This document shows positions 36,820 through 64,000 of a DNA stretch of 64,000 nt, piece by piece (the stretch's first letter is position 1; the number at the start of each line of letters is the position of its first letter). The position numbers and the translations under genes are program-made. The notes under the pieces are model-generated. The model was not told the origin of the DNA. It did not search any database and worked only from the letters and a program-made list of their open reading frames with translations. This DNA is from Taxawa tesnikishii (nom. ined.) (Eukaryota > Ascomycota > Dothideomycetes > Dothideales): contig JAPDRO010000012.1 in NCBI GenBank assembly GCA_030247885.1, forward strand, positions 868,001 through 932,000. Direction: 5' to 3'.

Positions 36820-38400
36820 TTATGCCAAAGTGAACCGTCTCAGCTCAGTCTCAGGCAAATAAGATGCATGATCTTCCTTAACGTTGAGCATCCATGAATC
36901 GCCGAGTAAACGGAACTGACCATCGCACCTTTTGCGAAGCACAAATGGCCTAGGGCAACCCAGAAAGCAGCAGACGGTATCGCCCGGACGGGCAGTATGT
37001 GGTATCCAGCCGAAATGTTGCCCTGAACAGCCTGAAAGCGATGCCAGTAGGAGCTCACGGTCTACAGAGCTGCGTCGCCAGCTATTCGCCGATTCGTTCT
37101 GGCACGCCAGATAGTCGATCACAGGGTCATGAACCTCATCGTCCGCCCCCAGCGACAGCTGCTGTCTCAATCCATCGTCGAAATCGTGCAGCTGGCGCAA
37201 ATTTTGAGCATACATCTTCTCCGATGCCTCTGTATGCCGGTGTTGGACACCATGGTGGCAAGAAGTCATTTCAAAGGTCGTTCCAAAGTTGTGGCGATGT
37301 AGCAGTTCTTTGCACTGCTGCAAAGACAACCTGTTCGCCATATGACGCCAAATAAACTTTGTGCAACGCGCTACCCACTCCAATCGAAAGTGGTTCCAGT
37401 GAGCTAGGCCGTCCTTTGGACATGCTGAAGTATCCAAAATGTGCGAGACCGTGGCGAGTTGAGCGCCTTTCAGCGCAATCTCTTGCGGACGAAGCGGATC
37501 CAGCCTGTATTCCGGCTTTCTTGCATGCGCCATCTCGCGATATTGCCGGACTCCCGATACGAAAGGCTCGCCCAACCCCAACGCATATTCTTCGGCCTTC
37601 CTTTGGGCCCTCTTCGTCAAACGATGGAATCGAGGAGTCCAAGAACACCATAGCTCAGCCTCCTCTTCATTGTCTGGCTGGTTGTCAGTCCCAGCTAGCG
37701 CAAGGAGGAGTGAGATGTGAGGCACGGATTGCATCGTGCGAATATGTTTCGAACTCGTCGTCCCATGGATACTCGTCCGCACCGTTATAAAACAAGATTC
37801 GGGAACCACAGACCGGTTCCTGTACGACCCATAGGCGGGAGAACCATGGTTTGTTTGCCAGCTTTTGAATTGCAGTCTGAAGGTGACTTGTTGCTTTCGC
37901 CCAACGTTCGTACCCTGTCTGCTCTCGCATAGCCTCCATTTCTTTTGTCGATCTGGGATGGTCTCTAGGTAGACCGAAAGCGCAATCGCGCACCGGACTT
38001 GGCTCGAGCTACCAAGTCGGTCCCTCACTTTTGCCTAACTATACAAGTACTTGAGATGCTTCTTGGTAGACGTCCGCCATCCTTGCCACTTGTGCTGCGC
38101 GTTCTTGGTCATCGAGCTGGTTGATGCAGATTGCATCCGCCCACAAAATGCGCTCTTTGTTCTTGAGCCTTAGGTACTGTATGGCGCAGAAAAGCGAGCT
38201 TGTTACGCCGAGTTGAGATCCACCGGAGATGGACACCGTATGGGTGAGCTTTGAGCTTCCCCAAGCATAAGACAGAGCCTCACAGGGTTGGCTCAGAAGT
38301 CGTGTGGCAACCCTTGGCGACTGTAGCCTGTTACTCAATGTATTGTTGAGTGAATGGATCTCAAGGACAACAGGATAGTCTAATGTGAGGGGTAGGTTTG
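36820..38400 (-). pseudogene. HET-domain (heterokaryon incompatibility) gene, decayed
   Basis: On the minus strand the HET signature runs from EALSYAWGSS through RILWADAICINQLDDQERAAQVARMADVYQEASQVLV, followed in another frame by a KPWFSRLWVVQEPV motif and, to 36820, a C-terminal GDTVCCFLGCPRPFVLRK segment. These are the three conserved parts of HET proteins, in order, but they lie in more than one frame and the first is closed by a stop of RIP type. No normal start is seen; the frame upstream of 38338 is open only briefly. HET proteins trigger programmed death on contact between unlike strains. Between two AT-rich islands, this copy looks broken; about three interruptions. Confidence 0.7.
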
Positions 38401-42500: not shown

Positions 42501-43362
42501 CCCACAACAAATCTAGCCGCCGCATTGTAGAGCATACACAGATCTTTGCCCCAGTACAGAACGCGAGGCTCGCTAGAGGCAAGGATTGTAGTATACATTT
42601 GACGGAGGATTGGAGGCCAGTCTCGCAGAGGACCAAGGGCCGTCTGCTCCCACTTATGGTTCACGAGGAAATTGATCCATGAATCGGAAGTGGGATGAGG
42701 GAACAGGAACCAATCCACAGCTAAATCCTCGAGCGGGATATCGGCGTCCCCAACCCGAGGGTCAGGATCGGTAGCGGCGTGGGAATAGAGCGTGCTGGAC
42801 CCTGGTGACAATGCATTGTCCAGCACCTGCCGCTTGACGGGAACCATATCCTGTCGGAGCCTTTCTTGAGTTTCCGGCTCTTCAACTGAACGAGTGCCTC
42901 GTAATTCGATGGTCCTAATCTCTGACTGAGTCTCCGGTTCAGTCTCCAGCAGACTCTCCACTTGGCCATTATAGCGACGGTCTTGCCTACAAAAGACTGC
43001 CGTCCATGCGCCTCCAATCCTCTTACTCGACCAGACCCGCGAGGCGAATGTTCCCAAGTTCTCGATTCTTTGTTGATGCTGCGTTGTGCGACTACCCGCG
43101 ACATCGGACAGCGTGTGGATCCATTCACTGACTGTGACTTCTGCGAAGTCTCTGTGACAAGCGCATCGAGGGCGGCATTGCGAAAGATTATTCGAGGAGT
43201 TGTCAATTGCTCGAGCACAAACGTGGGGCGATCGTCGTCAGAAATGAAGTCGAGAAAGATGTTAAGCTCTAGTGGCAGACCTGCAGCCGACGCGTGCGAT
43301 GCTCCGGACGAGTCGAGCGCCGATGTCATGTCTATCTGACATCTGTTAGCTAATGTTTCCAT
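39549..43362 (-). CDS. Hybrid histidine kinase with PAS and receiver domains
   Basis: Phosphorelay sensor kinase. Exons on the minus strand: 43362-41207, 41089-40392, 40335-39691 and 39638-39549. Domains in order: long N-terminal sensor region with FASRVWSSKRIGGAWTAV, a PAS domain (MLHDAPIGMCVHKSDGYPAY on), H-box VSHEMRNPLSSI (joined by intron 41090-41206), N-box INLMTNAIKFT, G1 QDTGCGLS, G2 YGGSGLGLFISREL (intron 40336-40391) and a receiver with VVEDNAINQKV, phospho-acceptor VVLLDVEMPIMDG and the invariant Lys in TKPFRIPELI, supplied by the last 90-nt exon after a perfect TACTAAC branch site. Two frame breaks: C3 43095-43097 and T5 40557-40561 (plus strand), each needing one base more. The start could also be 43329. 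Cytosolic; the ligand is unknown. Confidence 0.88.
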
Positions 43363-43712
43363 CGCGACGCATGACTCATTTATGTGGAAAGATTTCTTGT
43401 CGTTAAGCCTTAGGTGTCTGTCCAGGGTTGAGGTGGACGGATAATCTATAGGACTTTGCGCGGTAGTCTCCAAATTGTTCTCGTATCTACAATACCTCGG
43501 CGGAAGTCTCGGAAGTCTTCCGCGGTAGATCGTTGCAACGCGTCAACTAGAATCTACTCTATTAATTTGACTACTACTATAGAGCCTTAAACGCGTACTG
43601 TTGCTATAATCTCGCGTAATCAATGTTACCGTCGTACGAAGCTCTTACTAGCTATAAGAAATTAGATAATTAAAGTTATTATTATTAAGATATAATAATA
43701 TTTAATATATTA

Positions 43713-45556
43713 ACGTGTTTTATTACTAAGTAACTACCCTCTACTAAGTAGCTACCCCTTACTAATATCGCGACTATTATAGACTATTACCTTTATATTA
43801 TAATACTATATAAAGATATACTTTAACTTATAATATTATTTAAAAGTATTACTATCGTTTATATTTATTATTTCTATAGTATAAGTACGTATATTATAGC
43901 TAGTCTTATTATAACGTTTATAGTACCTTTACGCGCGTACTTTCTTTATAAGTTATTTAGTACCTTTCTTACTATTATTATTCTTTTTAATTATTAAATC
44001 TTATACGTTACTTACTATTAGGCTTTCCTCTATTTAAATATACTTTCTTTTACAACTACGCTACTTTATTAACGCCTTAATTAACTTCTAAAGACTTGCG
44101 ATTTCCCTTATTTATAACTCTAATTTATAACTTATAATAGCTACGCCTTTAGTAAGCAAATTTATAACTTATAAGAGAGGCGAAATAAGTAATTCTTTAT
44201 ACTATTATATTCGCTTATAAACTAGCGTTATCTACGCCTTTATTTCCTTTAAGTTAGCTAGTATTTTAGACTCCTATAAAGTAACTTTTAATAGTACAAA
44301 TATTAGTATATAAAGTACTACGTTAAGCTTTAATAGTATTTACTTTAAGTCGTAAGGAACTAAACTAGTACTTTTAAAGCTTACTAGGATATTTTCCTTT
44401 ATAATTGCCTTATTAAAAGTAATATAAAAGGCTAGTAAGAAGGCTTCTTTTTAACTTATATAGTAAAGTACTATAACTAGCTATTAATCTTCGCGTTATA
44501 TACTTACTTTAAGGGGTAAAATAGCTTACATTAAGCGACTATAATAAGTATAATAAGTATAAGAATATATAAAGAATAATAATCTTTTATTCTTTATAGT
44601 AGTTATAGAAATTATAACTACTATAACTCTCGTAACTATCTATAATTAGTAGGTAATATATACTTACTTAACGCGCCTTTATATATACGTTAAAGTACTT
44701 TAACTACTTTAAAGTAAGCTTATTTATCGTCTAGCTATTAGCGCTAGTCTTAATTACTTAATCGCGAGGTAGGCCGACGTACTAGCTCGATATAAGGACT
44801 TTACTATTAAAGATAATAAAGAGTAAGATAGTTTACTTAGTAGTATAAATACCTTAGATAATTATAACTTACTCCTAGTTACTTAGCTATATCTTTTAAG
44901 ATTACTTTATTTCTTAGAGCTTATAAAGACTATTTAAGCGTTAATTATACCTATTATAAACCTAGACTTATTAAAGTTATATATATCTTTATTTAGGATA
45001 TTATACTTTTCTTTATCTTTTAACTAGTTCGAACTAGAGTATTATAATACGTACGTCTTCGTTTAAGGCTTACTAACAATTATATAGATAACTATATTAA
45101 AGCTTAACTTCCTTAATATACGTCTTAAACTTATTTACTTAGTACTTACTAATAAGTCCTTTACTATATATAGTAAGTAAATCGTTAGCTATTTCTTTTA
45201 CTATAGTCTTTATAGTACTTATTTCTCGTAAGTCTAGCTTAAGTATACGTACTATTATCGCCTCCTCCTTTATTTTCTTTAGCTTCTTTAAGTTAAGCTT
45301 ATAGTTGCGTTATATAAGCTTTTTATCGCGTTATTATCTTAGTATCGTTCGGGAGATATTATATACCTTAGACGCATATTTTATACTATTAAAAGGAGTT
45401 ACTTAAGTAGCCTTAATAGTAAGGTATAATATACCTTTATTATAAGTAAATTATACGTTACGTCGTAGTAGTATTATTATAATAGTTTATAATAGTTACG
45501 ATATTAGTAAGGAGTAACTACTTAGTAGAAAGTAGCTACTTAGTAATAAAATACAT
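43713..45556 (-). mobile_element. Element A1: pogo/Fot1-like DNA transposon, RIP-destroyed (1.84 kb)
   Basis: Bounded by TA (43711-43712, 45557-45558) and by inverted repeats of about 75 bp beginning ACGTRTTTTATTACTAAGTA. A second copy (A2, 61452-63299) in the same orientation has nearly the same length and ends. The coding direction is minus: around 45190-45240 the reverse strand reads LDLREISTIKTIVKEI and then SKY-VNKF, which matches the CENP-B-type DNA-binding domain of Fot1/pogo transposases (LDLRGFPP..., VGKxWVxRF). Stops in all frames. 1.84 kb with TA duplications is the usual Fot1 size class. Confidence 0.85.
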
Positions 45557-46089
45557 TATAATAATTTCTATTATTAATAAGATAATTAAGTATTATAGTT
45601 AAGTAACTTAAGTAAAATACTTAAGTTTTACTAGTTACTACTTTATTAAGTTTATAAAAATAAGAAATACTTAAGTAATTAACTTTCTTTTTATAGTAAG
45701 AATTAATATAAGTATAATTATAATAACTAAGTTACTAAGTTAGTAAAGCTTATATATTATTATTGTTTCTATTAGAACTTAAAGCTTTTAATAAGGAATA
45801 AACTTAAAAGAAATATTTAACTTATAATTAAAGAAATTTAATTAAGGTTAAATTATATAGTATTATAAAAAGGAAAATTAACTTTAAAGTATAATAGTAT
45901 TTCTTTTTAACTTGTAATAAAAGTAACGTTACGTAAGTATCTTCTCTTATATACCTTAGGTAAAGTTATATATATTAACATTTCTCTTTAATATATAAAT
46001 AAAGGATCTTATTATAGTAATTATTTCTATATAAGTTTTACCTTAAGTACTTTTAAAGACCTTTTAATTAGTTTTCTAAAATACTTATA

Positions 46090-47934
46090 ACATAAACTAC
46101 GAGGAAGTAAGATAAGTAAAGAAGTAAGATATAATAATATTAATATTTATATTTGATAGTTACTTACGTACTATAATAATAATATAGTTAAAATCTAAGT
46201 TACTATATATATTTTTAAGTACTTTATCTTCCTTATCTTTTAGTACTTCTTTAATTGTACGCTTACGTAAGCGTCCGCGTAGTTTTTAGTTAATAACTTT
46301 ACTTTAGTTACTTTAGTTATCTTAAGTACTTCTTACGTACTAAATATAAACTTACTCTTTAATATAACTTACTTTCTCTTCTTTTAAACTTTTCGTATAT
46401 TAAGAAACTTTTCTTATTTTTAAAGTTACTTACGTAAAGTAACGTTCTTATTATACGTTACTTTAAAAGCGCGAGTTATTTACTTTATATATTACTTTAC
46501 TAGGGATAAAGCTTCTTAAATTACTTTAATTATAAAGTTAAATAGTATATTTACTTTACGTAACTTAGTATTATTTAGAGGAAAGTTATTAAGTAGCAAA
46601 AGGTCTAGATTAAGTTATTATAAAGGTATATAAAGTTATAAATCTACTATAGTCGATTTTATAAGTAACTTATTAAGTATTATTATAAGGCTTAGTAGTA
46701 TTAAACTAGTAGCTTTCTATTTACTTAAAATATTCCTTATTATAATAACTTTAGCTCTTACGTATATATATATCTTTATTTACTTTACGCGCGATATATA
46801 GTTAAACTCGACTTATAAAGTAGTACTAGTTTCTAAAGTTAGCGCGTACTTAAGTAATATAAATACGCTAATATTAAGTAGTTAGAATATATATAAATAG
46901 TAAGGTAATAAGATAAGTAAGTCGATCGTATTTTCTATATAAAAGGTAATTACTTTTACTATTATATAGCTATTATAGCTATTTATAATTAGTATTCTTT
47001 ATATTATAAAGTTATTAGGCTATATTAAGAGCTCGAAAACTATAGTTAACTATTAAAAACTATAACTATTAAATGTCTAACTATTACTACTAGTTAAGAA
47101 CCTTTAGTTTAAAGGTATATATAAGGGTACCTAGGTAGTATTAATATATTTAGCTTTAAAGATAATTAAGGGAAGTATAATAGCCTTAGTAGTACTTATA
47201 TACTCGATTATAATTATTTACTCTTAATAACTTATAACTACCTTTTAACTAAATATCTTACGTATATTAATTAAAGCTCTTAATATTTAACTTACTTTAA
47301 TAGTAAAGTTAAACTCGTCTATATTATATACGCGCTCTAAAGGATAGTTATATTCTATAAAAAGTTTCGTTATTACGTTAAATTACTTCTTTATAATATT
47401 ATAACTTATTATATTAAAGCGCGTACTCTTAATTTAATAAGTCTAAATACTTATAATCTTAAGATAGTAAGTCTTAAAGTAGTTAAGCTACTTCTTACTA
47501 ATTAGCCGAGGAGATAGTAGTAGTTTCTTTAATAATTATATATATACGCGTCAAATTTCCTCGACTATTTATATAACTAATATAAGTAAAGTAAAAAGTT
47601 AGTATATATAAGACGTATAATCTATTTAACTAACGTCTTCTCTTTTGCGTTTAAAAGGATTTAATTCGATTTATACGCTATAGCGCGTAAAGGTTATTTA
47701 GCTATATAATAGTATATAGTAATAAGAGAAATATTAAATACGTAAGTAGCGTCTTAAACTAATTTATAGTCTTTGTTTTTACAAGTAGAAATATACTTCT
47801 AGATATTAGCTTTAATATAAACTTACTTATCTAGTATAGAAGTACTTATTATTAGTAGTAGTAAGTTTAAAAGTCGAGAAGACGAGTTTTAGTATCTTAC
47901 TTCCTTACTTATTTTACTTCCTCGCGATTTACGT
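46090..47934 (-). mobile_element. Element B1: pogo/Fot1-like DNA transposon, RIP-destroyed (1.85 kb)
   Basis: TA duplications at 46088-46089 and 47935-47936; TIRs of about 42 bp starting ACRTAAACYRCGAGGAAG. The transposase lies on the minus strand: near 46890-47010 the decayed DDE region reads RILIINSYNSYI and IDLLILLPYYLYIF, then LLNISVFILLKYAL. These are RIP-shifted versions of LLILDGHxSHxT, LLILPPHxSHxLQ and PLDxxVFxPLKRAL. A second copy, B2, lies inverted at the right end of the window. Confidence 0.85.
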
Positions 47935-48399
47935 TAGCTTTCGCTTCTAATATTACATTTATAAAGATAAAAACTATTATTTAGTATATAAGCTAATAGT
48001 AGCTATAAGCTATCCTAATTACTAATATGAAAATTTAAAGAGTATAATACGTAGTTATAATATATATTAGGTAGAGTAGACGTTTTGGGATAGAGAGGCG
48101 CGGACATAAGTGCGATATGTTCTACGTTTTATACGTACCGGTTTTCCTACTTCGCTCGCGTTAGTGCTACAGATCGCCGAGACTACACCGTATATAGGGT
48201 TACGTATGTGTTCGTTTAAAGAAGCGGTCAGGGATTAGGAAGACGAACTGCTCGAATATGTATGTAATAATTTATATTCCAACTGTTCCGTTGTTACAGT
48301 GCACAAAAAGCACTTGAAAGTAGAAAAAGGGCAATGGAATGATTGGTCAACGCGTGTGAGCGGTTTCTTCGTCCACCAGTTATAGGGGCAAAGAAGGGT

Positions 48400-49855
48400 T
48401 CAGAGTAGAGCAGCAAGAGACACAAAACCCATAGCCATCATGACTTGTATGGATGCACTTGACGTAGCCCTCACTCCTGCATTGGTCGTCTGGACTTGAA
48501 CACTGGGAGTAGCCACCGCTGTAGCACTGCTAGCAGCGGTGACTGTTACGGTCTTTGGAGATGCCGAAGATGAGCCGCCGGAAAGCGTAGACGAGCCATT
48601 TTTGCCGCCCGTCTGGGAGACGTTGCCGGTGCTCGTCAGTGAGCTTCCAGTGATGTTGCCGCTGAACGTCCACGCAGTACCGGTTGTAGCATTGCGGTAC
48701 CAGTTCTCCTTAGGGTCTCCAAGACACTCTCCGATTGTGACCAACTTCAAGCCTTTCTCATTAACCGTCTGGATCATAAACGCTGTGAGGTTGTTGACTG
48801 TTGTCTCGTGTGTGTCATGAGCGTAAACAATATACGATGAGGATGTATTGCTGCCCTGAAGGCCTGCAGTAACGTTGTTCTTCGCGAGCTGGACATCGTC
48901 CGCATCGTAGTCCACGTAATCGTACGTGTCGATATTGTATTCGATCTGCTACCACTCAGCTAGGTCGTGTTGGGAAAAACATTCCTTCACTCACAATGTG
49001 GTAGCCAAGGGCAGACATATCGTCGCGGCAGCCTGTATCTTCCTTGCAGCTGTCAAAGGGCGGACGCATGTACGTGGGGAAGAGGCCTAAGATGTTCCGG
49101 AAAGCCATTTCGTTTTTGATCATCTGATCCATGCGTTCGTCATGAGTGATGGTGTCGAGGTCCTGGTGGCTCCAGGTGTGCGATCCAATCTGGTGGCCCT
49201 CGTTGTACATCCTCCTAACAACATCCGGGTATGGAGTACTAGTGTTATCGATGCCGCGCTTGCCGTAATTGTTCCCAGTGACGAAGAAAGTTGCTTTGGC
49301 GTCGTTGGCCTTCAGCACATCCAACAGCTCATCTGTGTACAAGTATGGACCATCGTCGTAAGTCAGAGCTACTGTTCCCGGCACAGTGCACTGGAAGATG
49401 CCGGTAGAGCTGTATGAAATTGAACCGAGCGCTGGTCGCGGTACGCTTGAGGTGTTGCTGCCCGCTGGCATGGCATTTGCATCGCACCCAGGACCATACT
49501 CGAAGAGACAGTATGGCGCGTCGCAGAACGCCCTACCGGTACCGCATATGCCCTGCAGTTGTTGGTCAGTAACGTTACTTGCGCGGCTTGATCATCTTCC
49601 TACGTCGGCAGAACAGCACAATCCTGGTCCACAAGAAGCCCCCGACGCTGAAGGCCCACAACTGTCTCCCACTGCTGCCTGACGCGTCTTGAGGGACGGC
49701 GAATCGTGAGGTGGATAGCCTTCGGGGGTGCGTGTACCGACGTCTATATACGTATTGGTCCCGAATATTCGAGCTCTGAGCGGCACGTGTGCAGTTGTTG
49801 GTAGAACAAGCAACGCAGCAGCGGTCAACGCATCGAGAGGAAGTTGTTTATGCAT
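48400..49855 (-). CDS. GPI-type chitin/polysaccharide deacetylase (CE4, NodB) with chitin-binding module
   Basis: Removes acetyl groups from chitin-like chains outside the cell. Exons on the minus strand: 49855-49604, 49552-48995 and 48945-48400; introns of 51 and 49 nt; 451 aa. After a signal peptide (LTAAALLVLPTTA) comes a Cys-rich CBM18-like module (CGPGLCCSADGICGTGRAFC, across the first intron). The NodB domain has motif 1 TYDDGP, motif 2 HTWSHQDL, motif 3 RPPFDS and motif 5 YAHDTHE. The tail is Ser/Thr/Gly-rich and ends in a hydrophobic segment VMMAMGFVSLAALL, typical of a GPI-anchor signal. An in-frame extension beyond 49855 lacks ATG. First gene of the polysaccharide set; divergent from the UDP-glucose dehydrogenase gene. 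Confidence 0.92.
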
Positions 49856-51256
49856 ACTGTATGGAGATATCAAGGTCTGGAGAAGGAGTAGGGTTGAAGC
49901 AAGGACAGTGAGAAACACAAAAGCAATGACGGGCGATCGACTGCTGGTAGTGCTGCTGCTGCTGGGCAGAGCTGCAACATAAGTCTTGGCTTGATATCAG
50001 GCTTCGTGCTTGCCCGAAGGCTTGTGAAGCCCAGAACCGTCGCTTAGAATGGAACAGCCCATGCTTACAGACCGGTGGTGTTGCTACAACAGTCATTCCC
50101 TGGCAAGGTGGCTGAGACAAGTTTTTTTTTTTTTGGTGGCTTGCGCTCGTATCGAAGTTTCCGCACTGTTCGGTGCCGTTTGGGCAGGATCTGCGGGGTC
50201 AACCTACTGCCGGGTCGATCATGGCATGCATCTTTCCTGGAACGAGTAGTGACCACGGCGGGCGGTGCACGGATTCGGCGAGTCCTGGAGGTGGCGCTTC
50301 TCGGACCAGCTGAGCCGGAAGAAAGAGCTACTCCGCAGAATTGGGGGCCCCGTTAGCAAGCTGGCTCCACGTGCAAGAAACGCTTAGTCAGTCTTAGTTC
50401 GAAAGCTTAAAGTCACATCTTTTCTAGAACAGTATACCATGCTTGCATTAAGCAACTCTTTCGCTAAAACGAAAGCCACCTCAACCATCACCAGACTTAC
50501 AAATCAGCATTCAAAGAGATAGTGCACCTAGATTATTCTTCTGAATGACTTGACTTACCCATGGCTAGGCTAGCTTAGAGTCACATCTCTACCGAAGCTA
50601 ACTAGGATGTGCGTAGTACACAGGAACGTCGGTGTAAGTGTGCTATGGGTAATGTCTTAGTTCTATTGTTCGTGTCCGATGTGCTCGCAATGCCCGTTCA
50701 TACTGGACTTGGTGGTGGACTTGGAGAGATGCATTTTGGCTCGATGTTGCGAGCTACGTCGTGTTATGTCACATCGACACTCCGTAAACGCTCAGGTACA
50801 GACCTCCTTGTGAGTTGCAGCATCAATGTCTACTTAGTTTCCTTCAGACTAATGTCGGCACTGGGTTCATCACACCTCGTATCCGCATATCCTTTCCCGA
50901 ACGCTCCTGTCGCCTTCCAATGCGGACAGCCAAAGAGTGGCTTGAGGGTGCAGGGACACTGCTTGTGCGGGTACCAGGGCCGGAAGAATCCTGGTTCCAA
51001 ACTTCGTTATACATGGTCTCGAACCGGCGCCACCGCTATGCAAGGATTGAGCTCGTTAGCATACTGCAGTAAAGCCGATCAGTCTCTGAATGGTGTGCGC
51101 TCCATCCTTGGCCTGGACGCTAGATCAATGCACACCGCGCCTAAACCCGCCTAATTTGACAATCCAATCGCTCTTGTCCGACAAGATGCTCTTGGCAAAC
51201 GTGTTTGTGAACGGTTGGGATCTATAAGCCGTGGTCGTGAACTTCGGGACGTGAGA
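49856..51256. promoter_or_regulatory. 1.4-kb divergent intergenic region: deacetylase / UDP-glucose dehydrogenase
   Basis: Must carry the promoters of two divergent genes. A T-run of about a dozen bases sits near 50126. A plus-strand frame of 181 codons (50609-51154) begins at an ATG-less region, has no domain, and a competing frame (50815-51072) looks equally plausible; I call neither, although a small or decayed gene here cannot be excluded. Confidence 0.4.
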
Positions 51257-52742
51257 ATGGATACTTTTGGGAAACACCAAGGCCTGAGCAGATCTTGTTC
51301 ATCAATCAAAGCTGACAGCCGTAAAATCATGTACAACACACAATTGCCTCTCTCGCCGCCATTGACACCCTTGGGAACGGATCCTCCAATTCTCAAGGGC
51401 CAGATAAGACACAATGCCACCGGTTTCTTTCCAGCACTCAAGACGGTCTCCGCAAAGCCCTTGGCCAACGCGTCAGATTGTATTCGTCCAAACGACATTA
51501 CGGTAGCCGTGATCGGGGTTGGCTACGTCGGGATGCATCTCGTCACAGCCTTCGCGTCGAGGTTTAAAGTGATTGCGTACGATATCAATCCAACGCGGGT
51601 TGCCGAGGTGGAGGGACAGCTGCAAGGGCTACCGGTCTACTGCACTGCCGACATCACTCAGCTTTCCAGCGCAACCCACTTCCTCGTCGCCGTCACCACT
51701 GTACTACATCCGGACAAGAGCGTGGATGGACGCTGGCTGCAGAAGGCCATTGATGCCCTCGGTAGCTACGCCCGTCCTGGGTCGACCGTAGTGATCGAAA
51801 GCTCGGTCGCTGTGGGCATGAGTCGGCAACTTCTCGGACCGATCATGCGAGCGAAATCCCTCAAGGGAGGGTTTTCCCCAGAGGTAAGAAAGAGAGGCCC
51901 TAGCGAATGCGCTTACCAAGACTGACTGAGATCAATCACAGCGCGTTGACCCGGGTCGGAAGGGTTCCTACGAGGCCATTCCGAAGATCATCGCAGGCCT
52001 GGACGACATCTGTCCCGGCTCCCTCGACCAGATCCATGCTTTGTACTCCGAAGTCTTCCCGCATCTGGTTCCTGTATCGAGCGTCGAGGTTGCCGAGATG
52101 ACTAAGCTGTACGAGAACTGCCAACGCATGATGTGCATCGCCTACGCCAACGAGATGGCTGATGCGTGCAACGATCTGGGTATAGACGCTCGCGAAGTGG
52201 CTTCCGCTGCCGCGAGCAAGCCGTTTGGCTACATGCCTTACGACGCGGGTCTGGGGGTAGGCGGCCACTGCATTCCCGTCAACCCTTACTACCTGTTCTC
52301 CACATCAGAATTCCCACTCCTACGTGCGGCTACAGAAACCATGTGGGCCAGACCGGCTAGTATAGGCGGCCGCATCATGAAACGGTTGATGGAAACGAGG
52401 AACAATAGCAGCGTTCTGCCCAGAGTCCTTGTCGTCGGGGTCGGTTTCAAACGCGGTCAGAGCGTCATCAGCAATTCTCCTGGAATTTCGTTGATGAAGC
52501 ATCTGCTAGCGGAGTGGACGGTCCACGTCGAGTACGTGGATCCTCTCGTGGCCGAGGACCAGGTACCGTTTGCCCCTCGTCTGAATCATAAGACTGCGTG
52601 GAATAAGCAGACTTTAGAGACTTTTGACGCCATTGTCGTCGCTATGGCGCAGGAAGGTTTGGCAATGGAGGTCATTGACGGGCTTGAGGGCGTCATCGTC
52701 GAGGACTTTAGTGCCAGCAAACGACGTGCATATATCGGATAG
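51257..52742 (+). CDS. UDP-glucose 6-dehydrogenase (UDP-glucose/GDP-mannose dehydrogenase family)
   Basis: Oxidises UDP-glucose to UDP-glucuronate with two NAD+. Exons 51257-51883 and 51942-52742, 58-nt intron (GTAAGA donor, CTGAC branch, CAG acceptor) joining GFSPE to RVDPGRKG; 475 aa. N-terminal NAD site VAVIGVGYVGMHL, the FSPERVDPG motif, the central helix LYENCQRMMCIAYANEMAD, active-site Cys in GVGGHCIPVNPYYL, and the C-terminal UDP-binding domain with VLVVGVGFKRG. It resembles the short bacterial or cluster-type enzymes (family Asp after CIP is Asn here) more than the animal enzyme. First ATG of the frame chosen; MYNT (about 51329) is an alternative start. Convergent with the chitinase gene, 142 bases away. 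Confidence 0.93.
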
Positions 52743-52884
52743 TAGAGCTCTTTATACAAGCGTTTTCAGCCCGGTACGATACCAGTTCTAGCGTAGCGAT
52801 CTGTTGTCCATCAATTTGTTGTGCTTGTTCTGTTTCCAATGCACTGCAATCCAATGCTTCACGAGTACATGAGTGCCCAGAGAT

Positions 52885-54143
52885 CTACTTACTTTCCAGA
52901 GACCGGTGCCCTGCGACGATCAAACTGCGATCACCCTGAGCGTCGGCCGTTGCAGTCCAGTAAAACAAGCCGCCCAAACCCTCTCTCTTCGCATAATCTC
53001 CTTTGATCATCACAGTAACGGGGTTATCGTACGTGACAAAGCCGCCGTCACCACCGACGCAGTATGCTGCACACACGTTACGATCCACTTTCTCCACCGT
53101 TCCTGGCCGAGGCAGATCCCTGTACTCGAACACGCCTTGTTCTCCGCCGCCACCGCTGAACTTTGCCCCGGCCCTGTGGCTCCCAGGAACGAGCGTCCGT
53201 ATACGGGAACCCCCAACACGACTTTGTGCCGGGGGACACCTCTGGAAAGCACGTACGCGATACCTGAATCACAGGACCGCCTGCCATACGCATCGTGAGG
53301 CTCAGTAGGGGCCCGAAGCTGCGATTGATGCCCTGACAAGGGCGTCCAAGGTCCGGAGAAATCGTAGCACATCAGATTGAGGTAGTCTATCAGCACGCCC
53401 GCGCGCTCCAGGGGAATATGCCGCAGGCACCATTCGCCGGTTGGAAGCGCGGTCGTAAGCAGGTAGCGAGGCGCAGGTAGCCCCGCTCGGAGAGTTTCAA
53501 GTAACTCGAGAAATGAGCTCCCTTCCGACGCGTTGCTCGGATGCTCCCAGTCAACTCGAATGCGTGTCAGCAAGCAGCGCCCATGCCAACAACACGTGCA
53601 GAGCCTGGAAACGTACCGTCGACACCATCTAGCCCGTGTCTATCGACAAACTCGCGAGCGGAGCGGGCGAAGACGACGCGAGCCTTCGCGTCGGCGGCGA
53701 TTGCAGGAAACGGTTTGCTACCGCTCGCGCCGCCGATCGATATGAGGACCTTCAGGTGAGGGTGCTGCCGTCTGAGCAAGGCCAAGGCAGCGAAACATCC
53801 GCGTGCCCCGTCGACGGGGAGTTGCAGGTCCGCCTTCTCGTCCAGGTACTCGAACAGGAAACCCTGTAAGCGAATGGGGCCAGTCTGGGCATACAACTCA
53901 GCTGCAGACTTACATACAGGGTTCCATCGTGTCGCGCCCTGTGAGCGAGGCGTCAGGATGGGCTAGTAGGACGGCGGATGCGGTGGCTTTTCTGTCTTAC
54001 CTGACGAAGGCGTAGAAGACGTGATTGAGCAGATCCAGATTCATGGATGAGGGCACTGCGCCGCGGTAGACCCTCCAGCTAGGATAGTAGGCTCCGAGCA
54101 TCGGTTGGCGAGAGGAAGGAGCACAGGAGGCGTATAGAGACAT
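52885..54143 (-). CDS. GH18 chitinase, five-part gene with a 25-nt exon
   Basis: Minus-strand exons: 54143-54001, 53938-53914, 53863-53617 and 53554-52885. Glycoside hydrolase family 18: YYPSWRVY at the first strand, LKVLISIGGASGSKPF, the catalytic DGVDVDWE motif (split by the third intron, Glu present), LNLMCYDFSGPW, VVLGVPVYGRSF, GLGGLFYWTATAD. In the last exon the frame breaks at C4 53166-53169 (plus strand); one more base joins GPGAKFSGGGGEQGVFEY. No signal peptide is visible from ATG 54143 (MSLYASC), so either the protein is intracellular, it leaves by another route, or the true start is upstream. It would cleave beta-1,4-linked GlcNAc-containing polymer; role in the set is probably trimming or turnover. 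Confidence 0.88.
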
Positions 54144-55206
54144 GCTTGGCAGGCTGAGGTTGGAGCTTAGCAGAGTCGAGATGACTATAGCACAGCGCGC
54201 GAGGGGAACTGAATGGCCTGATCAACCCGAGCTCAGCTCGAGACCCTATGGCGCGTCTGTACGCCTCCCGTACTGGAGAAGACCAAGAGACCTGGTAAGC
54301 TAGACGCTTTTGGCGGGCCAAGACTGGGAAAGGGAAAAGCGTGCTCTTATACTTCCGGGACTCGCGTAAGTTACATGGTCGGATTGGGGTTATCGCTAGA
54401 TCAGATCTTCGGTCCCTGTGCAGGTCCGAAGCCTGGGTGGGGTGCCCCGTGCCCCTGGGTCCGGCGAAAAGAAGGTTTAGCGTCGACCGAGCTTACCCCG
54501 CCCGGCCCTGAGCCAAGTCATCAAGCCCAACGACAGCAAGCCTTGCAAAGTCTGTCCCTGTCCGGTGCCAAGCCTGGCTGGCCCTATCGCTTGAGAAGGA
54601 GGCGTCGTAAACGCACCTGCAGGCCCGTCCAAGTGCCTGTTCGAGTGCCCCGTTCGCGGGCACCCGGAAACCTGGGTGCGAAACGGCCTCTGTGTGGCTT
54701 GCGCTCCTAACTGCATGACTCGTCAACACTTTCTCTCGAAACGTTTGTCAGGATCCCTGGAACATGCCTACGCTTACTGTCGATAGCGCCATGCGTTGTG
54801 CAAAGATAGCTGATGTGCCTGACGGGTCCACAGCTTGTCAACACTTTCTGATATCACTCGTGGCCTGACTGCATCCGGGGTTCGCTGCCTACACGCCAGG
54901 TCCAGGTTCAATGGACTACTGCATGCTCGGGGTGTCTGGAACGGCGATGCTGCCTCGCTTGACGGCACGTCTCCTAACTGGATTTGCGACTACGACTAGG
55001 CTACACAGAAAGACAAGCCTCGGATGCGCCGCTGTGAGCGCTGCCGAAGATGGTCTGTACGTCGTTGCAGTCCACGATGAGGGCCGTCCATCGTCGAGGC
55101 AGACAAAGTTGGCCTGCAGGCCTGATGTATAGGGTTCCGCAGCTGCTCTTTCACTCAAGCCAGTGCTCCAGCCCGGCCGTTCTTGCTGGTTTTCCTGACA
55201 CTTATC
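54144..55206. promoter_or_regulatory. 1.06-kb divergent region: chitinase / chitin-synthase-like gene
   Basis: Holds the promoters of both genes. No gene seen: open frames at 54375-54729 on both strands are GC-rich shadows of each other, and 54911-55132 has no domain. Confidence 0.4.
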
Positions 55207-58104
55207 ATGGTCCCTCTCCAAGACGATAGAGAGATTCTGCCTGGTGGCAACTCGCCGACCAACGAGATGTACAGCGAGCAGACTTATGCAGGACCTCCTA
55301 CGAACCAGCTCTCACATCTAAATCTTCCTTCCAAGTCGCCACACGAAACACGCCACTTCCATCTTCCGCAACACGGAAATTTTTGGTCAAAGATCCGACT
55401 GATCAGAGACCAGAAGGAGGCAGCGTCTTATCGCACCGCAGCAGTTCCAAAGGACCAAAACTGTCCGAAAGACGAGTGTTCCCTGGAAGACGTCCGAGCA
55501 TCGGCCAGTGTGCCTACGCTGACGCATGCGACATCCCGGTCGGCGTCCTTTGACCGAACACGATCCCCTCTGTCCAGTCATGGATGGGATTCACCGCGTA
55601 CCCCAGCTTCTGTCTACGTTAGGAAAGAGCGCAAGTCATATTTTCCAAGCGAGGACGAGGAAGACTGGCCTTTGCCAGATGCGAACCAGCATCTCGAGAG
55701 ATGGCTTCGGAACATGAGACCTGCATCTCGCCTGGCGAACGATACCTCAACGCCTACGTACGCATCGCATGACTCCTCGCGATTGGCGTTGACGCGTGAC
55801 TTATCCGCTAGCGAGCCAGACGTTGCAGCATTTCCTGACTATCGGAGCCGCTCGCTGCCGGATATCGCGCTGGGATTAGAGCATCTACCGGTCCCTAGAA
55901 CCCGTCGCCTCTCGCTTCCCACATATCTGTTGCCTGAGGATCGCGACGGTCGCGCTGAAGTGGCAAGGCTTCTGCGTACACAGAGTCCCCGCCTGCGCGA
56001 GATGCGCTTCTCTCGAGATACCGCCCGCAGGGTAGCCCTGATGGGCAGCGCGGAAGCAGAGATAGCAGAAGCCACAGCATCGAAGATGCCGACCTCGCTG
56101 CTGTCGCCCAACAGCATGCTTGTGTGGCAATTGAAGACCCTGACAGGATATCGATAGAACCTCGTCCTGCGTTCCAAGATACTTCAAAACGCCCCGCTTC
56201 GGAGGCCCGGCAGAACTCCCTGACCGCGCTGGAGCAGCTCGTCACTTGTAGAGTGGCGAATCCTCAGCCTGAAGATGTTGGTGGGTCCATGAGAAGGAGA
56301 GGCCGTCGAAATATCGTCCTGCAGAAGCACTGCGTGCAAGCCGCGCAAGTCACCATCAAGTAAGTCTGCTTAGGCGACAAAGCGTTTCGAACAACGCTAA
56401 TGGCCGCAGTGGTCTGTTCATATTCTCCACATGGTGGTGGACGCAATACTGGTATATCCTACTTGTCTTCATATCGGCGACAGTGGCCCTAAACATCATC
56501 ATGATCGGATCCATCGCCGTCCACAAACTGTGGTTCGCCTTTTTCCTGAGAGGACCATATCACCAGAGAAACCGGAGTCGTTGGTTTTACTCATGCCGTG
56601 CTACAACGAGACATCGGAGGAGTGCACAAAATCCCTTGACTCCCTAGTCAATCAGACTGGCATTGATGAGCACCCACGCTCCATCATGATCATCTGTGAC
56701 GGCAAGGTTCGCGGCCCCGGGATGGACAAAACGACAGCTGACTATCTGCTCGAGGATATACTCGTTGAGAAGACAGAAAGACGTCACATTCGGCACGCTT
56801 ACACCGCATGGGATCAGCAGTACATGGATGTGGTCATCCAACGGGGCAAATACAAGGGCGTTCCGTATTTTTGCATCATCAAGCAACAGAATCAAGGAAA
56901 GCGTGATGGACTCATCGTCGTACGCTCTTTCCTGTACAACTTCAACATCCGCGATCAGAAGCCCGCAGTTATCTTCTCTCAGGCCTTTTTCGCGCAGATG
57001 GCATCCTTCCTTATCAACGATGCTGGCCAGGACAGAGTAGACCACCTCGTCGGTATGGACGCGGACACCGTGTTCGACAAGCAGTGCATCGCAGAGCTGC
57101 TCAAGCAGAGCAGGTACCCATGCACTGTGGGAGTCTGTGGCTACGTCGCAGTGGATTTCCATGGTGGCGGGTGGGACCCCTGGCGGCTATATCAATCTTC
57201 CGAATATACTATCGCACAGGCACTGCGACGTCTGCATCAATCCATCGTCACAAACAAGGTCTCGTGCTTGCCCGGGTGTTGCCAACTTCTGAAAGTCTGC
57301 GAGGAAACTTGCGGTGACGATGTATTGCTCCGACTCTTCGGCTACTCTCCGCGCTTGACGGACAACATCTTGAAGCAGATCCGTGCGACCGCTTCCGAGG
57401 ATCGAAACCATGTCTGCCACATGCTTTCCGCCCGGCCCAAGGTCAAGACGCGGCAAGCGCTCGCGGCAAAGGCCTTCACCGACGTTCCGCACAGCTGGTC
57501 GGTGTTCCTGTCTCAGCGTCGCAGGTGGACGCTGGGCGCCACTTCGAACGATCTCCTGCTGGTCACTGCGCCTGGCGTGCAGTGGTTCGAGAGGATTTTG
57601 GCCACCGTCAACGTCATTACATGGACGCTGAACCCATTCATCTTCGCGAGCATTGCCAGCTTCATTTACGCCATCACCAAGGTTCCAGGGTGGATCGTCG
57701 GCGTCTTCGTCGCCGTGATGTTCGTTCCCAGTAGGTGATCCCCCTTTCTGATAATTTCCCTCCACGTCCCAACGTTTCAAACGCCCAAAACGCAGAGTGC
57801 GAAGCTGACGAACCACGCTCCAGTCTTGTATTACATCGCTATCCCGACTTGGTTGTACGCGTCCTGGAAGCCTCGGTTCCAATTCTGGGCCGGCATGTGT
57901 ATGTACGTAGCGGGCGGACCTTTCATTGGCATCGCAGTACTGCTTTATGCTTCGTGGAACATGGATTCGTTTGGATGGGGTAAGACTAGAAAGGTCGTGT
58001 CGGAAGATAACAATACATCAGAAGAATCGGAGGATTCAGATTCGCTGCAGGCGCAGCTAGAGCCGCGGAGTATCATGGACGAGGAAAAGCGTGTCGGTCT
58101 ATAA
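55207..58104 (+). CDS. Chitin-synthase-like GT2 glycosyltransferase
   Basis: Processive membrane glycosyltransferase. Exons 55207-56359, 56410-57730 and 57824-58104, introns of 50 and 93 nt. About 390 N-terminal residues are disordered and basic, ending NIVLQKHCVQAAQVTI; then two membrane helices (GLFIFSTWWWTQYWYILL...), the catalytic domain with LMPCYNE, VKQ-type QQNQGKRDG, the DxD-like VGMDADTVFD, ASEDRNH and the product-binding SQRRRWTLGAT, and a C-terminal membrane bundle with an acidic tail. These are chitin-synthase family hallmarks; there is no myosin head. Two breaks: C3 56107-56109 and T5 56540-56544, each needing one base more (the second gives FAFFPERTISPEKPESL). Its polymer may be chitin or a mixed glycan; neighbours suggest the latter. 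Confidence 0.9.
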
Positions 58105-59122
58105 GGGTATCTCTAGTAGAGAGATTACCGCCCTGGAAAATCCATCTAACCTAACGTATCCTATCTTGTGTAGAGTTAGTAGATTCAATCACGTCTTTAA
58201 TTACTTTGAATACTTTATATAGCTTACTAGGGATATACTAGTATATCTTATTGATTTTATACCCAATATTCGCGTCTATTTTTTCTTTCTTATAAGTATC
58301 TTCTTATATTAATTAATAGAGTCAAATTCTAGTATAAAATTATATTATTTATTTTCGAACTTTAGTCTTATTATTATACTAATAGTAACGTAAACCGCGA
58401 AGAAGCGAAATAAGTAAGGAAGCGAAATACTAAAACTTATCTTCTTAACTTCTAAACTTACTACTACTAATAATAAGTACTTTTATATTAAATAAGTAAG
58501 TTTATACTAAAGCTAATATTTAGAAGTATATTTCTACTTATAAAAATAAAGACTATAAATTAGTTTAAGACGTTACTTATATATTTAATATTCCTCCTAC
58601 TACTATATACTATTATATAACTAGATAACCTTTATATACTATAGCGTATAAATCGGATTAAATTCTTTTAAACGCGAAAGAAGAGATACTAATTAAATAA
58701 ATTATATATCTTATATATACTAGCTTTTCTACTTTACTTATATTAGTTATATAAATAGCCGAGGAAATTCGACGCGTATATATATAATTATTAAAGAAAC
58801 TACTACTATCTCCTCGGCTAATTAGTAAGAAGTAGCTTAACTACTTTAAGACTTACTATCTTAAGATTATAAGTATTTAGACTTATTAAATTAAGAGCGC
58901 GCGCTTTAATATAATAAGTTATAATATTATAAAGAAGTAATTTAACGTAATAACGAAGCTTTTTATAAAATATAACTATTCTCTAGAGCGCGTTTATAAT
59001 ATAAATAAGTTTAACTTCGCTATTAAAGCGAGCTAAATATTAAGAGTTTTAGTTAATATACGTAAGATATTTAGCTAGAAGGTAGTTATAAACTATTAGG
59101 AATAAATAACTATAATTAAGTA

Positions 59123-61142
59123 TAATATAAACTATAAGGAAGCTAACTAAGTAGGGAAGTTAACTACTAAACTACTACCTCTTTTACGTTAATTATTATC
59201 TACGTATTATAATAAGAATATAATCTAAATTTAAATTACTATATATATTTTTAAGTATTTTATCTTACTCCTCCTTAACTACTTCTTCGATTAGATACTT
59301 ATATAGCTACTTATACGGCTTTTTCTTTACTATATTTACTTCCGCTTTCCTTACTATTTTAAGTACTTCTTACGTACTAAATATAAACTTTCCTTTTAAT
59401 ACGACTTACTTACTCTTCTTTTTAGACTTTCGGGAATTAAGAAGTTTTTACTACTCTTTAACTTACTTTTATAAAGTTATATTCTCGTTATATATTACTT
59501 TAAAAGTAACGTTAACTACGAGGAAGCGAAACAAGTAAGGAAGCGAAATAGTTAACTTAATATAACTTAGTTTATCTTCCTTTAAGTTAAAGTTTCTCTT
59601 TTACTAGACTCTTAATTACGTAGATAAGCTTAGTATCTCGCTTCCCTACCTATCTTACTTCCCCGTAGTTTACGTTACGAGTTATTTATTTTATATAGCG
59701 CTTAACTAAAAAGGAAGATCTTATATAGCTTAAATTACTAAGTTAAGTACTATATTTACTTTATAAAGTTTAGTACTATTTAAAGGAAAACTATATAGTA
59801 GTAAAAGGTCTAAATTAGCTTATTATAAAGGTATATAAGGTTATAAGTTTACTATAGTCGACTTTGTAAGTAACTTATTAAGTATTATTATAAGGCTTAG
59901 TAGTATAAGGCTTATATTATACTATTTACTAATAATATTATAAGTAATAAGGGCTCTAGTTCTTACGTAAATATATATCTCCGTCTACTTTATATATAAT
60001 ATACGGCTAGAATCGACTTATAAAGTAGTATTAGTCTCCGAAGTTAGCGCGTACTTTAGTAGTATAAATACCTTAATATCGAGTAGTTAAAGTATATATA
60101 AATAGTAAGGTAATAAGATAAGTAAGTCGATTATATTCTCTATATAAAAGGCTATTACTTTTGCTATTATATAGCTATTATAGCTATTTATAATTAGTAT
60201 TCTTTATATTATAAGGTTATTAGGCTATATTAAGAGCTTAAAAACTATAGTTAATTACTATAAACTATAACTATTAAACGTCTAGCTACTACTACTAGTT
60301 AAGAACTTCTAATTTAAAGGTATATATATAAGTACTTATATTATATTAATATATTTAGCCTTAAAGATAATTAAGGGTAATATAACTTTTTAGTAGTACT
60401 TATATACTTAATTACTATTATTTACTCCTAATAGCTTATAACTATCTTTTAGCTAAATACCTCGTATATATTAATTAATACTCTTAATATTTAACTTACT
60501 TTAATAGTAAAGCTAAACTTGTTTATATTATAAACGCGCTCTAGAGAGTAGTTATATTTTATAAAAAGCTTTATTATTACGTTAAACTACCTCTTTATAG
60601 TATTATAACTTATTATATTAAAGTACGCGCTCTTAATTTAACGAGTCTAAATACTTAAGATCTTAAGATAATAAGTCTTAAAGTAGTCGAGTTACTTCTT
60701 ACTAATTAGTTAAGGGAATAATTATAAAGTCTTTAATAGTTATATATATTTACGTTAAACTTCTTTAACTATTTATATAATTAACGTAAGTAAAGTAAGG
60801 AATCTAGTATATATAAAACATATAATTTATTATACTAATATCTTCTCTTTTATATTTAAGAGGATCTACTCTATTTTATACGCTATAGCGCGTAATTTAT
60901 ATCTTACTATTTAATTATATAAAGTATTATAAGGAATCTTAGATATACTAACTACTTATTAAATCGAGGTATATTTCTTTTCTTTAAGAGTAGTAATAGT
61001 ATCCTAGATATTAGCTTTAAAATAAGCTAGCTTACTAAGTATAAAAGCGCTTATAGTTAATAATAAGAACATTTAAAGATAAAAGGGTTATATTTAAGTA
61101 GTTAACTTCCCTACCTAGTTAGTTTCCTTACGGTTTATATTA
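59123..61142 (-). mobile_element. Element C: third pogo/Fot1-like family, inserted in B2
   Basis: TA at 59121-59122 and 61143-61144; TIRs of about 44 bp ending in ATAAACYRTAAGGAARCTAA. Its interior aligns with B1 in the same orientation (for example 59800-60400 with 46600-47200), so B and C are related families with different termini. Without the MITE it carries, its length is 1.85 kb. Coding direction minus; no open frame left. Confidence 0.82.
59509..59675. mobile_element. 167-bp MITE with B-type termini inside element C
   Basis: TA flanks at 59507-59508 and 59676-59677. Ends ACGTTAACTACGAGGAAGCG and, inverted, ACGTAAACTACGGGGAAG match the B-family TIRs. The flanking text is contiguous in B1 (46455-46470), which lacks the insert, so the boundaries are well fixed. 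Probably a deletion derivative mobilised by a B-type transposase. Confidence 0.8.
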
Positions 61143-61451
61143 TAAGTACTACTAAAGCTATTATATTTCCCTTAATTATCTTTAAAGCTAAATATACTAA
61201 TACTATTTAGGTACCTTTATATATGCCTTTAGACTAAAAGTTCTTAACTAGTAGTAGTAGTTAAACGTTTAATAATTATAGTTTTTAATAGTTAACTATA
61301 ATTTTCGAGCCTTTAATATAGTCTAATAACTTTATAATATAAAAAATATTAATTATAAATAGCTATAGTAACTATATAATAGTAAAAGTAATTACCTTTT
61401 ATATAGAGAATATAATCGACTTACTTATCTTATTACCTTACTATTTATATA

Positions 61452-63299
61452 ACGTATTTTATTACTAAGTAGTTACCTCCTACTAAGTAGCTACCCCTTA
61501 CTAATATCGCGACTATTATAAACTATTACCTTCGCACTATAATACTATATAAAGATATACTTTAGCTTATAATACTATTTAGAAGTATCGCTATTATTTA
61601 CATCTATTATTTCTATAGTATAAGTATACGTATTATAGTTAGTCTTACTATAATATTTATAGTACCTCTACGCGCGTACTCTCTTTATAAGCTATTTATT
61701 ATTCTCCTTACTATTACTATCCTTTTTAGCTATTAAATCCTATATATTATTTACTATAAGACTTTCTTCTATATAAATATACTTTCTTTTATAACTACGC
61801 TACTTTATTAACGCTTTAATTAACTTTTAAAGACTTATAATTTTCCTTATTTATAACTCTAATTTATAACTTATAATAGCTATACCTTTAGTAAGTAAAT
61901 CTATAGTCTATAAAAGAAGCGAAATAAGCGAATTCTTATATAATTATATACGCTTGTAAACTAGCGTTATTTATACCTTTATTTCCTTTAGATTAGCTAG
62001 TATTTTAGACTCCTATAAGGTAACTTTTAATAGTACGAGTATTAGCGTATAAAGTACTACGTTAAGCTTTAATAGTACTTACTCTAAGTTATAAGGAACT
62101 AATCTAGTACTTTTAAAGCTTACTTAGATATTATCCTTTATAATTACCTTATCGAAAGTAATATAAAAGGCTAGTAAGAAGGCCTCTTTCTTAACTTATA
62201 TAATAGAGTACTATAATTAGCTATTAATCTTCGCGTTATATACTTACTTTAAGGGAGTAAAATAGCCTATATTAAGTAGTTATAATAAGTACGATAAGTA
62301 TAAGGGTATATAAAGAATAATAATCTTTTATTCTTTATAGTAGTTATAAAAGTCGTAACTACTATAACTCTCGTAACTATCTATAATTAGTAAGTAATAT
62401 ATACTTACTTAATATGCCTTTATATATACGTTAAAGTACTTTAACTACTTTAAAGTAAGCTTATTTATCGTCTAGTTATTAGCGCTAGTCTTAATTACTT
62501 AATCGCGAGGTAAGCCGACATACTAGCTTAATATAAAGACCTTACTACTAAAGATAATAAAAAGTAAGATAACTTACTTAGTAGTATAAATACCTTAGAT
62601 AATTATAACTTACTCCTAGTTACTTAGCTATATCTTTTAAGATTACTTTATTTCTTAGAGCCTATAAAGACTATTTAAGCGTTAATTATACCTATTATAA
62701 ACCTAGACTTATTAAAGTTATATATATCTTTATTTAAGATACTATACTTTTCCTTTGTCTTCTTAACTAGTTTAAACTAAAGTATTATAACGCGTACGTC
62801 TTCGTTTAAGGCTTACTAACAATTATATAAATAACTACGTCGAAGCTTAACTTCCTTAGTACGCGTCTTAAACTTATTTACTTAGTACTTACTAATAGGT
62901 TCTTTACTACGCGTAGTAAGTAAATTGTTAGTTATTTCTTTTACTATAGTTCTTATAACGCTTATTTCTCGTAAGTCTAACTCGAGTATATATACTACTA
63001 TTACTTTCTCCTTTATTTTCTTTAGCTTCTTTAAGTTAAGCTTATAGTCGTATTATATAAGCTTTTTATTACGTCGTTATTTTAGCGTTATTTAGAGGAT
63101 ATTATATACCTTAAACGTATATTTTATATTATTAAGAGAAGTTACTTAAGTAGCCTTAATAGTAAAGTATAATATACCTTTATTATAAGTAAATTACGTA
63201 TTACGTTATAGTAGTATTATTATAATAGTCTATAATAGTTGCAATATTAGTAAGGAGTAACTACTTAGTAAGAAGTAGCTACTTAGTAATAAAATACGT
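61452..63299 (-). mobile_element. Element A2: second copy of A, inserted in B2
   Basis: TA at 61450-61451 and 63300-63301; 1848 bp; same orientation as A1. Ends ACGTATTTTATTACTAAGTA and its inverse. Host sequence on both sides is continuous B2, which proves a later insertion. Differences from A1 are mostly C/T and G/A, as RIP would leave. Confidence 0.85.
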
Positions 63300-64000
63300 T
63301 ATATTTTAACTACTTAATATTAATATATTTATACTACTTAAGCGCGCGTTAACTTTAAAAACTAACGCTACTTTACGAGTTAACTTTAACTATATATTAC
63401 GCGTAAAGTAAATAGAAATATATATACGCGTAAAAGTTAAAGTTATTATAATAAGGAATATCCTAAGTAAATAAAGAGTTACTAGTCTAGTACTACTAAG
63501 CCTTATAATAGTACTTAATAAGTTACTTATAAAATTAACTATAGTAGATTTATAACTTTATATACCTTTATAATAACTCGATTTAAACCTTTTACTACTC
63601 GATAATTTTCCTTTAAATAGTACTAAATTACGCGAAGTAAACGTACTATTTAACTTTATAATTAAGGTAATTTAGGAGGCTCTATTTCTAGTAAAATAAT
63701 ATACGAAGTAAATAACTCGTACTTTTAAAGTAATATATAATAATAATGTTACTTTACGTAAGTAGTTATAAAAATAAAAAAGCTTTTTAATATATAAAAG
63801 GTCTAAAAGAAAGAAAAGTAAGTCGTATTAAAGAGTAAGTTTATATTTAGTACGTAGAAAGTACTTAAGATAGTTAAGGTAATTAAAGTAGAGTTATTAA
63901 CTAAAAAACTACGCGGATACTTACGTAAGCGTACAATTAAAGAAGTACTAAAGGATAAGGAAAATAAAGTACTTAAAAATATATATAGTAACTTAGATTT

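Follow-up and report, generated by a model that had tools for sequence, protein, structure and literature searches.

Four adjacent genes for carbohydrate-active enzymes lie near one chromosome end in Taxawa tesnikishii (nom. ined.; Ascomycota, Dothideales), and the question they raise is which polymer such a set would make. The window analysed is a stretch of 64,000 nucleotides, bases 868001-932000 of contig JAPDRO010000012.1 (hereafter C4) in GenBank assembly GCA_030247885.1, which comprises 29.4 Mb in 34 contigs. A deacetylase, a nucleotide-sugar dehydrogenase, a chitinase and a family 2 glycosyltransferase (GT2) occupy positions 48400-58104 on strands -,+,-,+, and all four genes contain introns. 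Pfam matches and gene models bear out the first-pass annotation in this arrangement and in three family assignments, namely CE4 (Polysacc_deac_1, 112 bits), GH18 (main piece 174 bits; C-terminal piece, which lies in a different frame, 39 bits) and GT2 (103 bits). From the observed gene content, order and families, the dehydrogenase substrate class indicated by profile scores and a second cassette elsewhere in the genome, we infer that the C4 set is an accessory cassette of the subtelomere and belongs to the chlorovirus-like 'CV / CHS8' type. This type joins a uridine diphosphate (UDP)-N-acetylhexosamine (HexNAc) 6-dehydrogenase (UNGD), a chitin-synthase-like protein (CHSL) and a deacetylase; here a GH18 gene is added, and the set would make a chitin-type surface polymer. 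We give this reading about an even chance.

The dehydrogenase is the telling member of the set, as had been proposed, and the co-location of genes for an amino-sugar polymer with its deacetylation likewise stood. By profile scores, the name 'UDP-glucose dehydrogenase' (UGD) had the wrong substrate class, and neither the proposed supply of UDP-glucuronate nor the hyaluronan-like product was supported. Among NCBIfam models, the C4 enzyme scores 112.9 bits against TviB, a UDP-N-acetylglucosamine (GlcNAc) C-6 dehydrogenase, and 64.9, 56.4 and 34.5 bits against the UGD models AglM, TuaD and PRK15057. The order is reversed in the control, the other family member of the genome on contig C30 (TuaD 284.4, AglM 233.0, PRK15057 75.6 and TviB 34.8). 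Two UDP-N-acetylmannosamine (ManNAc) dehydrogenase models give the C4 enzyme 106.6 each and the C30 member 102.8 and 101.1, and do not separate the two; no model reaches its equivalog cut-off on the C4 enzyme, and only the general TIGR03026 passes. The catalytic cysteine stretch reads GVGGHCIPVNP in the C4 enzyme versus GFGGSCFRKD in the C30 enzyme, and such motifs part the dehydrogenase classes. Among solved relatives, a hypothetical UDP-ManNAcA dehydrogenase and Cap5O rank highest, above the UDP-glucose dehydrogenases. By its profile scores the enzyme is a predicted UDP-HexNAc (UDP-GlcNAc-type) dehydrogenase, and the precursor is therefore more likely to be the uronic acid form of UDP-GlcNAc (UDP-GlcNAcA) than UDP-glucuronate.

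A second UNGD-GH18-CHSL set at C5:174869-182900, within 8 kb and with all genes in the same orientation, led us to reject chance adjacency of the C4 genes. Both UNGDs found in the genome thus have a CHSL nearby with a GH18 between the two (2/2 cassettes). With random placement of GH18 genes, the chance of a GH18 in both slots would be about 7e-7 for 6 loci and 4e-6 for 15 loci, a figure for a question that was framed after the pattern had been seen. The genome holds at least six GH18 loci, one of them under the family cut-off, and these counts are lower bounds. The two cassette GH18s are 26% identical and share 5gzu as best solved chain; they could represent either separate recruitment or old divergence. 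No deacetylase was found in the C5 cassette, and none of the eight PF01522 matches in the genome lies on C5. Since the deacetylase accompanies the CV type and not the other in the published pattern, the C4 cassette would be of CV type and the C5 cassette of ESV type.

The C4 CHSL comprises an N-terminal part without a Pfam match, a hydrophobic stretch, a catalytic core with the motifs CDG, DADT, SCLPGC, EDR and QRRRW, and a C-terminal hydrophobic part. The last motif occurs in both CHSLs and conforms to the general QXXRW pattern. The protein is a GT2 outside the ordinary chitin synthase classes with a Chitin_synth_2 domain, which other GT2s can carry as well. Its identity is 49% with the C5 CHSL and 25% with the C23 synthase. 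In a synthase tree the two CHSLs pair with support 92/94 and adjoin the synthase at 266 kb of C4, apart from those on C34, C23 and C17; this tree took in eight own-genome rows only (seven different, some short, two on very long branches, no branch starred) and left out the Chitin_synth_2 matches on C15 and C13. Against solved structures, the C4 CHSL gave seven matches up to E 1, five of them chitin synthases and two unrelated proteins, with a weak best E of 0.067, and a two-row profile returned chitin synthases in all four matches (best E 0.0044). The NodC model of NCBIfam scored 29 bits. No hyaluronan synthase appeared among the solved GT2 relatives up to E 1, which is a weak test at scores this low. 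Because Chitin_synth_2 also matches hyaluronan synthases, as stated in the text of Goncalves 2016 (PMC5122149), the solved relatives leave chitin versus hyaluronan unsettled. Single-protein, alignment and degenerate-motif scans, phage tblastn and a search of prokaryote contigs returned no viral or other fungal relatives of the CHSL and UNGD, and this reflects the collections and patterns used more than the genes themselves, since chloroviral relatives have been published. Structure models of the CHSL core and of one UNGD exon alone were too poor for use (mean predicted local distance difference test scores of 39.8 and 38.6).

The deacetylase supplies the co-located polysaccharide deacetylase of the CV/CHS8-type cluster. 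It has an N-terminal chitin-binding domain of CBM18 type (Chitin_bind_1, 32 bits) and, by eye, a signal-peptide-like start and an end resembling a glycosylphosphatidylinositol (GPI) anchor signal. Its nearest solved chain is 2iw0, 'chitin deacetylase', from Colletotrichum lindemuthianum, at 226 bits. The GH18 protein is a putative chitinase with a broken frame that fits the family by domain and motif: the spliced reading holds DxxDxDxE as DGVDVDWE, and after 5gzu ('Chitinase') the best solved chains are 3g6l, Endochitinase 42 and CHITINASE 1. No obvious signal peptide was seen by eye.

The text of Chen 2014 (PMC4059230) describes a pairing of UNGD with CHSL in fungi and algal viruses, joined in one clade by a deacetylase, and the CV and ESV classes were named by Goncalves 2016. 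The C4 cassette resembles this cluster in its adjacent UNGD, Chitin_synth_2 GT2 and deacetylase and in being a patchy accessory locus with multiple unlinked copies per genome; it differs in the GH18 between UNGD and CHSL and in its subtelomere marked by repeat-induced point mutation (RIP). The same three families stand together in the chs8-cda1-UNGD cluster of Trichoderma atroviride, where confrontation with host fungi strongly induces chs8 and cda1 (Kappel 2020, PMC7053769). There, CHS8 carries QRKRW instead of QRRRW, chs8 and cda1 lie head to tail, and the passages seen name no chitinase in the cluster. The C5 cassette resembles the ESV-type pair without deacetylase in Wangiella/Exophiala dermatitidis, from which it differs by also carrying a GH18. 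In the open-licence passages seen of PMC4059230, PMC5122149 and PMC7053769, figures and supplements excluded, no GH18 is named as a cluster part; relative to those passages the UNGD-CHSL-deacetylase cluster is known and the GH18 inside it is a new feature. The Aspergillus cluster mentioned in the first-pass annotation proved to be a different one (Pacheco-Arjona 2014, PMC4141765). It also places a chitin synthase near wall-related genes, but its composition differs from that of C4, with a class IV synthase head-to-head with an activator and a glucanase, a kinase and a phosphatase, and its text has no mention of UDP-glucose dehydrogenase or deacetylase. The text seen of PMC5353729 holds nothing on this chitin synthase class.

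In the proposed pathway, the UNGD would oxidise UDP-GlcNAc to UDP-GlcNAcA in the cytosol, and the membrane-bound CHSL would link GlcNAc into a chain and extrude it, probably with some GlcNAcA built in. Once exported, the deacetylase, attached to chitin through its binding domain and perhaps GPI-anchored, would turn part of the GlcNAc into glucosamine (GlcN), while the GH18 would cut chains or shorten them. At the cell surface this would yield a partly charged layer of chitin type, deacetylated and perhaps carrying GlcNAcA. Rather than forming the main scaffold of the wall, the layer may be used in special circumstances, for instance on contact with a second organism. The text of Chen 2014 calls it unclear what UDP-GlcNAcA does in fungal cells, and the cassettes offer a concrete hypothesis: GlcNAcA would be built into a surface polymer of chitin type. 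This sugar could be missed in wall analyses: the acid-sugar standards named for Trichoderma walls were glucuronic acid (GlcA) and galacturonic acid, not GlcNAcA (PMC11302013).

Several points weigh against the proposed charged polymer. Donor specificity is not readable from profile scores alone, and neither CHSL has the QRKRW motif, which the text of PMC7053769 reports for the Trichoderma CHS8 group and that of PMC5122149 does not use to define the class. Wangiella UNGD and CHSL go down under low pH and radiation (PMC4059230), and a 2025 review, in the part seen, describes ESV-type synthases as presumably silent, a point that would concern the C5 cassette. The published product evidence also appears to be for chitin and not for an acidic polymer: as told in PMC5122149, disruption of Fgchs8 lowers chitin and synthase activity and the chs of chlorovirus CVK2 yields fibres in E. 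coli, and chitin fibres form in cells after infection by chloroviruses that carry chs (PMC5408694). Because of this evidence, ordinary chitin or chitosan as the sole product is close behind the charged polymer, and we regard it as a quite possible alternative. Here the CHSL would be a chitin synthase that contact or stress induces, the deacetylase would yield chitosan, the GH18 would remodel, and UDP-GlcNAcA would go to another acceptor. The solved GT2 relatives weakly agree with this, as does a deacetylase of the chitin deacetylase kind, yet a UNGD beside a CHSL in both cassettes, and in the fungi and viruses described, would be odd if the CHSL ignored its product. A polymer akin to hyaluronan or glucuronyl-GlcNAc and built from UDP-glucuronate, as first proposed, is very improbable. 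It draws on the GT2 family and the Chitin_synth_2 domain shared with hyaluronan synthases, on the homology of CHS8 to those enzymes and the speculation on UDP-GlcA use in the text of Kappel 2020, on small amounts of GlcA in Trichoderma walls (PMC11302013), and on the separate ordinary UGD on C30. It was rejected as the leading account chiefly on the dehydrogenase scores, which put the cassette enzyme outside the UGD class, with weak support from the solved GT2 relatives.

Decay is a further concern, since the breaks in the C4 GH18 and GT2, the C5 UNGD and probably the C5 GH18 may reflect loss of function and so also count against an active pathway. The C4 GH18 frame breaks near 53160, its C-terminal piece running on in another frame to 52885. 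The C4 CHSL changes frame between about 56040 and 56160 and again between about 56540 and 56590; of the 30 and 13 formal splice options there, respectively, not one has a GTRNGT donor. Some accepted cassette introns lack this donor too, so that an unusual intron could still account for the first change. An intron at the second was rejected because all 13 options would delete parts of the hydrophobic stretch or linker that are kept in the C5 CHSL (by eye). Four clear breaks (one each in the C4 GH18 and GT2, and two in the C5 UNGD, namely a stop codon and a changed frame) and two less certain ones (the first C4 GT2 change and the start of the C5 GH18) thus fall in about 12.2 kb over both cassettes. 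In 29 housekeeping loci, two clear breaks and one ambiguous break were read by eye from match coordinates: one clear in 10 Cpn60/TCP1 loci, one in 10 HSP70-type loci, none clear and one ambiguous in six tRNA synthetase loci, and none in three RNA polymerase loci. In several control matches, internal stops were counted as introns, which makes this control count a lower bound. The Poisson probability, with control rates set roughly by hand, is 0.018-0.10 for four breaks and 0.0005-0.009 for six. A decaying remnant nevertheless seems unlikely to us; on this view a RIP-affected subtelomere would be losing the cassette, GH18 and CHSL would have become pseudogenes, and open frames would remain in the deacetylase and UNGD alone. 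The broken pieces retain their catalytic motifs, the cassette has no RIP signature, and the GC content at third codon positions (GC3) of UNGD and GT2 core is within the range of four other genes, with the deacetylase below it. Because housekeeping genes also show breaks, decay and assembly error are not separable; the internal frame changes at C1:528261 (CCT) and C3:494622 (HSP70-like) point to base errors in the assembly. A bolder extension of the charged-polymer reading takes the GH18 as a regular fourth cassette part, since GH18s only 26% identical fill the same UNGD-CHSL slot in both cassettes. GlcNAcA before polymerisation, GlcN after it and cutting on site might then give a short-chain zwitterionic chitin-like coat, encoded on a repeat-bracketed, possibly mobile island. 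We hold this extension to be doubtful; if true, it would be a fungal polymer that the literature consulted does not describe. The shared GH18 slot provides a marker that can be searched for in further fungal genomes.

The C4 cassette is an island of about 10 kb that lies 48-58 kb from the telomere, with AT-rich repeat blocks of RIP type on both sides. Seven other open frames in its gaps (102-182 codons) have no Pfam match. The earlier statement that no unrelated gene intervenes thus mirrors the cassette being an island in a repeat-rich subtelomere. The GC content is 0.549 and the composite RIP index -0.43 in the cassette, and 0.24 and 1.8 in the flanks (44000-48200 and 58200-64000). The cassette-adjoining repeat copies, one ending at 47936 and the other starting at 58386, are mutually inverted, 58386-59124 being an inverted copy of 47199-47936 at 90% (blastn). 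Both flank repeats have further copies at 938-959 kb of C4 and had no match within C5 160-196 kb; their length is reminiscent of Fot1/pogo-type DNA transposons. GC3 is 0.645 in the UNGD, 0.667 in the GT2 core and 0.683 in the C5 CHSL, compared with 0.63-0.81 in four other genes. The deacetylase lies below that range at 0.584. With GC3 otherwise in range and introns in all four genes, a recent foreign origin of the present copy is unsupported. Feature coordinates are collected in Table 1.

Table 1. Features of the C4 cassette and its flanks (window positions) and of the C5 cassette (contig positions)
Feature	Position	Strand	Details
Chitin/polysaccharide deacetylase (CE4)	48400-49855	-	exons 49855-49604, 49552-48995, 48945-48400; 451 aa, frame open throughout
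UDP-HexNAc (UDP-GlcNAc-type) 6-dehydrogenase, UNGD (predicted)	51257-52742	+	exons 51257-51883, 51942-52742; 475 aa, frame open
GH18 chitinase (putative)	~52885-54143	-	exons 54143-54001, 53938-53914, 53863-53617, 53554-; at least 4 exons
GT2 chitin-synthase-like protein (CHSL)	~55207-58104	+	Chitin_synth_2 103 bits; introns 56360-56409 and 57735-57797 (latter by eye)
Left flank	43600-47936		AT-rich (GC 0.24) RIP-type block, mostly copies of two ~1.85-1.88 kb repeats
Right flank	58386-64000		copies of left-flank repeats, nested in each other
C5 GT2 (CHSL)	174869-177970	shared orientation	open frame of 1034 codons
C5 GH18	~179837-181000	shared orientation	probable frame change near start (by eye)
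C5 UNGD	~181651-182900	shared orientation	premature stop codon and frame change

Left of the AT-rich block, the minus strand carries pieces of a PAS/histidine kinase with, by eye, a receiver-like stretch (39661-43542) and, between two AT-rich dips, a 404-codon open frame without a Pfam match (36820-38034). The C4 terminus consists of TTAGGG repeats about 48 kb past the cassette. These are preceded by a GAGT-type simple repeat, and a GC-rich stretch lies near the terminus at about 968-973 kb.

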